This document shows positions 27,475 to 30,394 of a DNA stretch of 64,000 bases, piece by piece (positions within the stretch are counted from its first letter, which is position 1; the number at the start of each line of letters is the position of its first letter). The notes under the pieces are model-generated. The model was given only the letters and a program-made list of their open reading frames with translations. It was not told where the DNA came from and did not search any database. The position numbers were made by a program, and so were the translations under genes. This DNA is from Arthrobacter sp. PM3. Lineage in GTDB: Bacteria; Actinomycetota; Actinomycetes; Actinomycetales; Micrococcaceae. Location of the stretch: positions 2,736,972-2,800,971 of the forward strand of contig NZ_CP022314.1 of NCBI RefSeq assembly GCF_003352915.1, written 5' to 3'.

Positions 27475-27633
27475 GTACCTTGAGTGCATCGGCAGGTAAT
27501 TCGCCGGCCGATCGGGGAGGCCAGTACATGGAGCGGATTTTCGCACCGGGTGTATGGGGGGCCGCGTCCGGCCTCCAGGCCGAGCCGCCTCACCTATAAC
27601 AATTCCGGGCATTGTCCCGGGGCTGGAGTCGAT
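27475..27633 (+). promoter_or_regulatory. Possible structured 5' leader of the PhoH gene
   Basis: TACCTT at 27475-27480 may be a -10 box, which would give a leader of about 145 bases. It contains hairpins ATCGGC...GCCGAT (27488-27512), CGGCCT-CC-AGGCCG (about 27569-27582) and CCGGG-CATTGT-CCCGG (27605-27620), the last ending just before the CTGGAG ribosome-binding site. No known riboswitch class is recognised. Confidence 0.3.
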
Positions 27634-29070
27634 GTGGCTATTTCTGAGCAACTGCCCGTTTCCGAACAGGGACAGAAAGCTACCTCTCGCGCCAAGCGAG
27701 CCACCTCAAAGACCGGTGCAGCGCATGCAGACGCTGCGGCCGGTCTTGCTGTTTCCGGGGAAGGAACAGAGCGCCGGGGCACGGCCCGCAGTTTCGTGAT
27801 CGACACCTCCGTGCTGCTCTCCGATCCGCGGGCCCTCCTGCGCTTCGCCGAGCACGAGGTCATCCTGCCGATCGTCGTCATCACCGAGCTCGAAGGAAAG
27901 CGGCACGACCCCGAACTGGGCTACTTCGCGCGCAAAGCGCTCCGGCTGCTGGATGACCTGCGGCTCGAGCACGGCGGCCTGGACCGGCCCATCCCGCTCG
28001 GCCGCGACGGCGGCACGCTCATGGTGGAGCTGAACCACATCTCCGCCGAGGTGCTCCCGGCCGGCTTCCGCGGGGCGGACAACGACAGCCGCATCCTGGC
28101 GGTGGCGAAGAACCTGGCCAATGAGGGCCGCGATGTCACCGTGGTGTCCAAGGACCTGCCGATGCGCGTCAAAGCATCGGCGATGGGGCTGCTGGCCGAC
28201 GAATACCGCAACGAACTCGTCAAGGACTCCGGCTGGACCGGCGTCGCCGAGGTCGACGCGGGCGAGGACGAGGTCGCCACCCTCTATGGGCACGAACCCG
28301 TGTTCATCCCGGCCGCGGCCGAGATGCCGACCAACACCGGGCTCGTGCTGCTGTCCAACCGCGGCTCGGCCCTTGGGCGGGTCGGGGCGGACAAGCAGGT
28401 CCGGCTCGTCAAGGGGGACCGCGACGTCTTCGGGCTCCACGGGCGCTCCGCCGAGCAGCGGCTCGCGATCGACCTCCTGATGGACCCCTCGGTCGGCATC
28501 GTGTCCCTGGGCGGCCGCGCCGGCACCGGCAAATCCGCCCTGGCCCTCTGCGCCGGCCTCGAGGCCGTCCTGGAGCGCCGGGAGCACCGCAAGGTGATCG
28601 TCTTCCGGCCCCTGTACGCCGTGGGCGGCCAGGAACTGGGCTACCTTCCCGGATCCGAGGCGGAAAAGATGAACCCCTGGGCCCAGGCCGTCTTTGACAC
28701 GCTCGGCGCCCTGGTCAGCCAGGAAGTCGTGGAAGAGGTGATGGACCGGGGCATGCTCGAAGTCATGCCGCTGACCCACATCCGCGGCCGCTCACTGCAC
28801 GACGCCTTCGTGATCGTCGACGAGGCCCAGTCCCTGGAGAAGAACGTGCTCCTCACCGTGATGAGCCGGATCGGACAGAACTCCAAGATCGTCCTGACCC
28901 ATGATGTCGCCCAGCGCGACAACCTCCGCGTGGGCCGGCACGACGGCGTGGCCGCCGTGGTCGAGACGCTCAAGGGCCATCCGCTGTTCGGCCACGTCAC
29001 CCTCACCCGCTCGGAGCGCTCGCCGATCGCGGCCCTGGTGACGGATCTGCTGGAGGGGGCGGAGATCTAA
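27634..29070 (+). CDS. PhoH2-type protein: PIN ribonuclease domain fused to PhoH ATPase
   Basis: The start is the GTG at 27634 with CTGGAG five bases upstream, giving 478 residues; longer frames have unlikely N-termini. After about 50 low-complexity residues comes a PIN nuclease domain ([40 protein letters not shown] carry the acidic residues), then a PhoH helicase-like ATPase with Walker [13 protein letters not shown] and Walker [13 protein letters not shown]. PhoH2 proteins of mycobacteria unwind and cut RNA in a sequence-dependent way and often follow an antitoxin-like gene, which is not seen here. Convergent with the gene at 29.6 kb. Confidence 0.93.
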
Positions 29071-29569
29071 ACCCGTCCCGTGTTGGGCCGCGGTCCGGTT
29101 TGCCGTGATTGGGCTGCCGGGCCACGGCCCTTCGTCGTGGTCGGGTTTGCCGTGGTTTGGTCCGCCGGGCGGCGGCGCCCCGCCGTCGCTTAGACACCTC
29201 CCGTCGCTGCGCTGTGGTCGCTGGGCGACCTCCGCTTCGCTTTGGTCGGCGATGCGCTCCTTTGCGGGACACCGCGGCCCGTCTAGGTGCGCCGCTCACT
29301 CGCCGCGATGGTCTTTGGTAACGGTGAGGTGCGTACGCGCCGGGGCGCGGTCTTTCGTAAAGGAGCGCATCGCGACGCATCGGACCCCGGAGGTCGCCCG
29401 GCGACCGCAGCGGGTCCCATGCGTTGTGTCTAAGCGACGGCGAAAGGCCGTGTCACGGCAAACGCAACCACGGCAAACGCAACCACGGCAGCTCTCATCA
29501 TCGGTTGCTCCGGAACTGCCCTTCTGGGCGTCCTAAAAGGCGGGTACGGAGCAGTCGATGACGGGGTGC
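29071..29569. other. Gene-free region between convergent genes, filled by a large palindrome
   Basis: These 499 bases hold no supported gene. Nearly all of the middle is the inverted repeat at 29140-29483. The right flank (29490-29569) is unique sequence with no obvious terminator. Frames through it read only because of the high GC content. Confidence 0.6.
29140..29483. repeat. Imperfect ~340-bp palindrome (long inverted repeat), centre near 29311
   Basis: Paired blocks share one centre: CGCCGTCGCTTAGACAC (29181-29197) with its exact complement at 29426-29442; a 23-bp block at 29212-29234 with 29388-29410 (21 of 23 matching); GCGATGCGCTCCTTT (29249-29263) with its exact complement at 29359-29373; and weaker pairing up to the centre. 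The ends carry TTTGCCGTGGTT on the left and AACCACGGCAAA twice on the right as 15-bp direct repeats. It could fold into one long hairpin. Confidence 0.85.
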
Positions 29570-30394
29570 CTACTCGGCCGGGACGTCCCAGCTGATGTGG
29601 CGGCGGACGTCCGTGAGGTTCATCGATTCGGCGAGGAACAGGTCATCGAGCATGTATTCGTCCACGCCCAGGATCCTCAGCCAGTGTCCGTAGCCGGGCT
29701 CGCCGCCGGTATCCGGCGCATCCAGCCAGCGGCTCGCAACGCAGACGCCCGTGCCGGCGTCGATCCTCAACAGGGTGCGTCCGGGCAGGCAGATCGGGGT
29801 TGCCGGGTCGGCCGGACGGTAGGACGGGTTCGGGCTGACCGTGGCCTCGAGGGCGGGGCGGCCCTCGTGGTCCACTTCCGTGACGGAGCCCAGTTCCACG
29901 GCGTTGGAATTGGGGAATTCCAGCGGGACGGGGGAGTTGCCCGCGAGTTCCACGGGGTCGAGGACGGCGGCAAACCGGCCGTTCCCAAAGGACGGTTCGC
30001 CGTACGCTGCCTCCGGGCGGCGGCGCACCAGACCGTCGTCGTCGTACACGGGGGTGACGAGGTTCGGCGGCAGGAGCCAGGTCTTCCGCGTGGAACTGAC
30101 GTAGAAGCCGCCGCGGGAGTCATTGATGCCGGTGGTGCTGGCGATCACTAGTCCGTCGGCGGTTTCCAGCCGGAGGGCGCCGGGCCTGCGCAGCCACGCC
30201 CGGACGAGGTCTTCGGGAGCGCCGGCTGCGGCAGAGCCTGCGGTGCCTGTGAGGGGCCGGTCCAGGTATTCGAATCTCAGCGACTGCCACTTCCAGGGCG
30301 AGGACCGGCACAGGTCCCGGAAGGCCGCTGCCTGGTCTGCGGGGCCGCGCGGCGTGCGGGGACCGCGCCCGTTCCTGCTGTCCCATGCGGCCAT
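29570..30394 (-). CDS. Hypothetical protein, predicted soluble
   Basis: No family is recognised with confidence. The start is taken as ATG at 30394 because TAAACT lies exactly six bases upstream (leaderless pattern); an in-frame GTG at 30400 is the alternative. The product has 274 residues, no signal peptide and no membrane helix. Visible features are an Arg-rich start, a basic segment KWQSLRFEYLDRP, WLRRPGALRLETADG, an aromatic-rich DSRGGFYVSSTRKTWLLPPNLVTPVYDDDG and a C-terminal SRWLDAPDTGGEPGYGHWLRILGVDEYMLDDLFLAES. The pattern of short beta strands suggests an all-beta or mixed fold. It is divergent from the prepilin peptidase gene with 58 bases between starts. Confidence 0.65.
   Translation of the reverse strand: MAAWDSRNGRGPRTPRGPADQAAAFRDLCRSSPWKWQSLRFEYLDRPLTGTAGSAAAGAPEDLVRAWLRRPGALRLETADGLVIASTTGINDSRGGFYVSSTRKTWLLPPNLVTPVYDDDGLVRRRPEAAYGEPSFGNGRFAAVLDPVELAGNSPVPLEFPNSNAVELGSVTEVDHEGRPALEATVSPNPSYRPADPATPICLPGRTLLRIDAGTGVCVASRWLDAPDTGGEPGYGHWLRILGVDEYMLDDLFLAESMNLTDVRRHISWDVPAE

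Follow-up and report, generated by a model that had tools for sequence, protein, structure and literature searches.

The element described here lies between two convergent genes in the window (the whole stretch of 64,000 nucleotides of Arthrobacter sp. PM3 DNA that was analysed), where the genes and features are as follows.

27484-29070, plus strand: phoH-family gene (Pfam PIN_4 and PhoH), whose 3' end borders the element
29085-29131, plus strand: phoH-end hairpin (fold of 29072-29140, z -3.8)
29146-29157, plus strand: left outer word, TTTGCCGTGGTT
29165-29283, minus strand: RNA unit A, running outward (model match 29281-29167, 71.8 bits)
29284-29340, no strand: central spacer, in which no promoter-like site was found
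29341-29458, plus strand: RNA unit B, running outward (model match 29341-29456, 117.4 bits)
29454-29483, plus strand: CACGGCAAACGCAAC, two exact copies holding the right outer word
29466-29477: right outer word, AACCACGGCAAA
29570-30400, minus strand: convergent gene of 276 aa, whose stop faces the phoH stop across the element

The 276-aa gene has no Pfam match at 1e-5. Between the two genes, the imperfect palindrome of ~340 bp reported in a preliminary description of this DNA is real. It is made up of the inverted repeats I1 (29136-29197 with 29426-29487, 77%), I2 (29249-29281 with 29341-29373, 85%) and I3 (29210-29234 with 29388-29412, 92%), and the single-strand fold of 29130-29493 reaches -253.4 kcal/mol as against -175.8 ± 6.2 for dinucleotide shuffles (z -12.5), none of 100 being as good. 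Also present, as described, are the outer words at both arm ends and a repeated CGCTKCGCTKTGGTCG word in the left arm. The outer words stand outside the units and resemble half of the phoH-end hairpin, the 3' arm of which can double as one strand of P0 (the outer stem of a unit, see below) where a unit comes next; a similar hairpin stands alone in some relatives without a unit (L064, L080, L100). A scan of 28900-29700 for intrinsic terminators found no U-tract terminator at the outer unit ends, its sole site (29336-29349) lying at the inner edge of unit B, and a search for a dedicated promoter before the RNA gave TANNNT in 12 of 164 cases with 34 expected.

Two units placed tail to tail

The palindrome is two copies, which we call types A and B, of one element of ~116-135 nt that are arranged tail to tail and each fold on themselves. 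Unit structure was derived from the convergent-gene loci of 80 genomes (most of them also with phoH) plus matches in further genomes, and the common plan, taken from 127 copies picked by BLAST, has CGCCGTCGCTTAGACAC at the start, GGTCGCTGGGCGACC in the middle and GCGATGCGCTCCT at the end. Because A and B have these fixed blocks in common while their variable arms differ, what results is a palindrome with exact blocks amid poorer matching. Hence the inverted repeats of the supposed single palindrome stand, its being one unit does not, and the suggestion that pairing between the arms is conserved has to be given up: the exact blocks are motifs kept within each unit, and the pairing that is kept is intra-unit.

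Counted over 204 unit-bearing loci, which are partly redundant, one tail-to-tail pair is found at 99, three units at 2 and a single unit at 103, and the opposite order of a pair is found at none of them; extra partial pieces in direct order are present at some loci. In other genomes, the place next to phoH may hold a single A, a single B, A-B or B-A, or be empty. One phoH-site locus (L087) carries a chimeric unit with the left arm of B and the right arm of A, which suggests recombination between the two types. An apparent insertion of ~60 nt in the head motif, beside GCTTA words, is seen whole at L034 and L295 and in part at L007, L008, L031 and L101, and may be an optional extra domain or a nested insertion. 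In type A (e.g. window 29181-29285), a third GGTCG word that is kept in 35 of the 36 listed A arms could pair with the apical CGACC, making two mutually exclusive hairpins possible.

Fold, covariation and strand

From the outside in, each unit consists of the stem P0 (16 bp), the helix Pb (5 bp), an internal loop of fixed letters, P1 (in type B) and a fixed apical hairpin. For unit B of the window these parts are located as follows.

29343-29358, plus strand: 5' strand of P0, partner of 29440-29455 (alignment columns 3-18 and 100-115)
29359-29375, plus strand: 5' side of the internal region, with AGGAGCGCAUCGC and one Pb strand
29376-29423, plus strand: P1 (29376-29388 with 29410-29423) and apical hairpin P2 (29392-29397 with 29401-29406)
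29424-29439, plus strand: 3' side of the internal region, GUGUCUAAGCGACG
29440-29455, plus strand: 3' strand of P0

Compensatory changes, for which the preliminary description had proposed to look, are abundant. In an ungapped alignment of 47 B copies (including the A/B chimera of L087), both sides have changed at 26 of 34 pairs, there are 174 double-changed cells in comparison to 52 ± 5.3 after shuffling, and the structure pairs 91.7% of cells as opposed to 38-48% in slid controls. Covariation of P1 and P2 alone, on the other strand, was above controls, too; the six pairs of the apical hairpin barely vary and are hence uninformative. Copies for the swap, strand and covariation tests were picked by pattern with near-consensus head, apical and tail blocks required, which makes the invariance of these blocks partly one of construction, and for some sets, including the 47 copies, fixed arm lengths were demanded as well; the stems were not selected. 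With RNAalifold, a first alignment of 42 B copies missed P1 through misregister and a fixed-length alignment recovered it for B, while 18 A copies gave no double-changed pair.

Swapping arms between copies points in the same direction for P0 and for the P1 of type B. Own duplexes of B P1 average -19.2 and swapped ones -14.5 (permutation sd 0.32, 83 arm pairs), and the values for P0, in a register chosen from six tried, are -30.0 and -20.0 (sd 0.34, 130 of 163 copies), or -32.8 and -20.5 when the 29 A copies are taken by themselves. The P1 arms of type A are not matched (own -9.2, swapped -9.6), and our claim for P1 is therefore restricted to type B. Coordination between the phoH-end hairpin and P0 is weak (own -19.7, swapped -18.1), so that we do not claim a terminator/antiterminator switch.

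Pb takes the forms GGAGC/GCGAC (with two G.A oppositions, in 139 of 163), GUCGC/GCGAC and GGCGC/GCGCC, to which another genus adds GUCCC/GGGAC. Between Pb and P1, GCAUCGC stands opposite GUGUCUAA in nearly invariant form, partly owing to the choice of copies but also in the 127 picked by BLAST. A possible helix of the internal region, CGTCGC/GCGATG, would pair better as the opposite strand, where it has G.T in place of the A.C of the RNA strand; it barely varies and is uninformative as to covariation.

Which strand selection acts on can be read from the mismatches at paired positions, with expectations computed from column make-up. In the orientation first used, G.T is found 4 times in P1 (27 expected), 3 times in inner P0 (60 expected) and 19 times in outer P0 (61 expected), whereas A.C, which is G.U on the other strand, amounts to 42 (51 expected), 58 (107 expected) and 159 (160 expected), respectively. 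A.C is thus depleted less than 2-fold or not at all, other mismatches 2.4- to 6.5-fold, and P0 shows the excess of A.C over G.T in each class of site and in A and B alike; the eighth P0 position, treated separately, has mainly C.A, equivalent to U.G on the other strand, and gives no sign either way. Moreover, the opposite strand is the more stable one in 163 of 163 copies (mean -72.2 vs -57.9). Together, the stronger depletion of G.T and the greater stability of the opposite strand show that it is the outward-running strand, as seen from the centre, which is under selection. The working strand is accordingly minus for A (29283 to 29165) and plus for B (29341 to 29458). Unit B of the window (fold of 29326-29460) reaches -79.5 on the plus strand (z -5.56) with z -1.67 for its complement, and unit A (fold of 29166-29301) reaches -69.5 on the minus strand with z -0.34 for its complement, its own z of -2.56 marking a less decisive fold than that of B. 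Tolerance of G.U points to RNA, albeit a single DNA strand would show some, too. Given the position at convergent gene ends, the strand that folds usually runs antisense to the nearer gene and in the sense of the farther one. The units had also been considered as sense 3'-UTR elements of the nearer gene, an idea overturned by the strand asymmetry, as it is the other strand that folds.

Copies across genomes and the history of their sites

Copies elsewhere, another check named in the preliminary description, exist across the genus. Searched with a first model (one strand, without P0), 118 of 150 genus genomes have the unit, in 1-9 copies each; at the threshold and filters used there is no copy in the other 32, and E-values of the models are rough owing to short calibration. 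In its own genome there are exactly two strong matches at one site, and a search with the whole query returned the locus and its own reverse only; a suspected remnant 47 kb away (2813208) turned out to be the end of a coding gene. The gap between the ABC-F ATPase and TetR genes of this genome (L113 12134-12666), a place where the unit is present in many relatives, has no unit here and holds what by eye, from repeated words in six-frame ORFs, seems to be a different repeat. A first scan across the order with strict filters had given matches in 7 of 396 genomes and 1 of 109 genera, the own one, a picture corrected by the outward-strand model with P0 and lax filters: it matches 8 of 37 hand-picked genomes and 7 of 32 genera (six besides the own genus), in a set made up of the own genome, three with weak earlier matches (two of which matched again), 30 other family members and three unit-less members of the genus. 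Some of the copies from other genera are short forms, and their P0 is re-lettered yet paired.

Of 307 units at partly redundant loci, 270 have a same-direction stop before them and a convergent gene after them, the genes having been called by GC3 so that some of the 37 exceptions may be miscalls. Clustering 203 loci by their flanks (these loci and the 307 units partly repeat the same genomes) gave ten clusters that correspond to nine sites at most, as L288 also belongs to the pectate lyase site below. Three sites dominate, and all three are orthologous convergent gene ends: phoH (117 loci), ABC-F ATPase/TetR (56 loci; ~48 kb away) and Crp-family/NUDIX-like (16 loci; the NUDIX-like gene was named by eye and has no Pfam match). 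Other genera and the rare sites have copies, in both orientations, that are flanked by co-directional or divergent genes, so that one role relative to the neighbouring genes does not account for all of them. One such gap, between dapA-like and proline racemase genes, holds copies in the own genus and, in opposite orientation, in one other genus (two genomes, genes named by eye). In another genus (L359), copies at 1501-1585 and 2344-2429 flank a sulfate-assimilation operon gene, again named by eye; no convincing gene was found between the widely spaced units of three own-genus pairs.

At the pectate lyase site, four genomes (G133, G103, G038, G130; loci L285, L289/L229 from one genome, L295 and L288) have an A/B pair in place of the promoter and signal-peptide region of intact relatives. 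When G133 is compared to G108, ~370 bp are replaced by ~325 bp, with lyases that are 97% identical, and in this one close pair no target-site duplication was seen by eye. The right-hand limits of the site differ between genomes. Empty phoH sites have diverged too far for a precise comparison of this kind.

On a rapidly built phoH tree of 73 rows, in which support is weak for 33 of 70 inner branches and weak unit remnants are scored as absent, there are at least 19 changes in presence and, among 19 pairs, at least seven switches between the orders A-B and B-A, the pair having repeatedly flipped and disappeared there. The nearest neighbour of a unit is of the same site and side in 50 of 50 ABC-F units and is a phoH unit in 87 of 87 phoH units, though 16 of 36 phoH A units are nearest to one on the opposite side. 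Copying between sites is hence rare for these two, and so both are places of long residence, with flipping at phoH and, at the ABC-F site, two lineages that have each stayed on their side. Crp-family and rare sites form no clean site-specific lineages: for the former, 3 of 12 units have their nearest neighbour within the site and 9 of 12 at another. Across 12 ABC-F loci in the same orientation, mean identity is 85% and 82% in the two units and 51% in the spacer.

Candidate role, rival readings and known families

We favour, at a probability of about 0.6, a reading in which the palindrome consists of two diverging copies from a structured RNA family, one that we did not find described and that would be a candidate element of mRNA ends and gene gaps; its function is an inference. 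The fold may act in mRNA ends and between the genes of operons, where the fixed internal loop (GCAUCGC and its counterpart) might be recognised by a putative protein or RNA partner. The transcript that includes the fold would probably be affected in its processing, its stability or in read-through. Because the strand that folds at convergent sites is antisense to the nearer gene, the element could matter to that gene only if transcription reads through from the other one. With many genomes having no copy, the element is not essential. The inverted layout would simply follow from two copies being face to face, which may make it easy for a site to flip or to lose one of its copies. A more far-reaching version, speculative and rather doubtful in our view, sees an RNA-strand-specific element that stays at particular gene ends over long periods, can invert there and now and then gains new sites by DNA replacement, its loop being read by a putative factor rather than any known transposase, as a selfish or trans-acting RNA might that has spread through the Micrococcaceae.

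Mobile DNA is another option to consider, though an unlikely one: a non-autonomous hairpin cassette, folded as a single DNA strand, might insert next to gene-end hairpins and between genes, the pair being two insertions or one composite. New sites do exist, as with pectate lyase in G133, G103, G038 and G130, two genera have copies in the dapA/proline racemase gap, oppositely oriented, the phoH tree calls for 19 or more changes in presence, some unit-less relatives carry the phoH-end hairpin alone, and 9 of 12 Crp-family-site units are nearest to another site. Mobility is hard to reconcile, however, with one site only in the own genome, with nearest neighbours staying within the site for 50 of 50 ABC-F and 87 of 87 phoH units, and with a G133/G108 difference that is a replacement and no clean insertion, no target duplication having been seen by eye where compared; plasmid and phage collections gave no match, and the transposase domain PF01797 occurs in 1 of 150 genomes. 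With a single site in the genome, no duplication seen by eye in the one pair compared and site-specific lineages of phoH and ABC-F copies, the degenerate MITE that had been guessed at is not supported. RAYT mobilisation was rejected on the PF01797 count.

Less probable still is an outsized bidirectional terminator, or a barrier to antisense read-through between convergent genes. It would account for most of the fetched sites being convergent gene ends, for a folded strand that forms just before polymerase would enter the nearer gene in antisense, and for the strand that the phoH-end hairpin can share with P0, but it has no need of fixed internal-loop letters, the unit ends in the window lack a U-tract terminator, several unit-less relatives keep a plain hairpin, and copies are found in operons and between divergent genes as well. 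Template switching can correct long inverted repeats, and such quasi-palindrome correction at the DNA level would match the arms and yield double changes without selection or any selected function. We consider this very improbable, as it gives no reason to tolerate A.C yet remove G.T on one strand, and leaves internal-loop letters that are kept though unpaired as well as bulges and an eighth-pair wobble in P0 that persist. Chance or private debris, for instance an inverted duplication of a gene fragment, can practically be dismissed in view of the z of -12.5, a unit in 118 of 150 genomes, the covariation, and a length of the B core that is off the commonest reading frame in 28 of 123; a coding origin was rejected on the same variation out of frame.

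By its covariation, which exceeds both shuffled and slid controls, the element behaves as a structured RNA, and the earlier guess of a long structured RNA was right in kind. It resembles the candidate structured RNA motifs of comparative genomics in being found by covariation with no assigned function, and Arthrobacter goes unmentioned in the text of two papers on such motifs (PMC2864571, PMC6429828). A riboswitch would be expected on the same strand and upstream of related genes; these units are mostly antisense to the nearer gene, with rare exceptions. When both strands of 28900-29700 were compared to Rfam, riboswitch families included, by cmscan with E-values of up to 1 allowed, the only match was to a miRNA at 20.7 bits, where the cut-off is 70, and the literature searched, a scope from which most subscription papers and preprints fell outside, held no description of the element. 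As this family, with strong covariation behind it, is present in roughly four fifths of the 150 genomes sampled from a common soil genus but absent from Rfam, these bacteria probably possess an RNA-recognising factor or RNA-based element that awaits description, and the fixed loop letters and two orientations at one locus allow direct tests. On a more general note, an apparent palindrome may turn out to consist of two back-to-back RNA copies, and RNA folding can be told from palindrome repair in DNA by a bias of wobble pairs towards one strand.

REP/BIME elements of enterobacteria and pseudomonads are intergenic hairpin units, often in inverted pairs at gene 3' ends, that are mobilised by RAYT, with units of ~20-40 nt and hundreds of copies per genome. 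Ours are likewise intergenic and come as inverted pairs of hairpin units, and this inverted-pair layout is the one feature among those tested that they share, so the preliminary comparison to REP/BIME was sound for layout (two inverted units) and failed for RAYT and for many dispersed copies. In contrast to REP/BIME, the unit here measures 116-135 nt, has several stems and a fixed internal loop, and occurs in 1-9 copies per matching genome; the one genus genome in 150 with a RAYT/Y1 transposase is not our own. ERIC/IRU elements, which are ~127 bp long, form one long imperfect hairpin, lie between genes and are transcribed within mRNAs. The present unit is alike in length, in its long imperfect hairpin and in being intergenic, but it differs in recurring at orthologous sites across the genus and in a strand-specific fold with covariation; any relation in sequence was compared via Rfam alone. 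A REP survey (PMC12306157) lists predicted palindromes for one Arthrobacter species.

Similarity to Ms1 and 6S RNA is one of shape only, these being long hairpins, too, that have an internal loop on either side. Our element is shorter, often has several copies per genome, sits at phoH, ABC-F and Crp-family loci and has no Rfam match. At two loci (L278, L282), a rare unit site adjoins a HAD-like hydrolase gene, named by eye. According to one paper, Ms1 is predicted for Arthrobacter by synteny and often has a HAD hydrolase gene as its neighbour (PMC9130861), a coincidence with the HAD-like gene beside the rare unit site for which we have no explanation.
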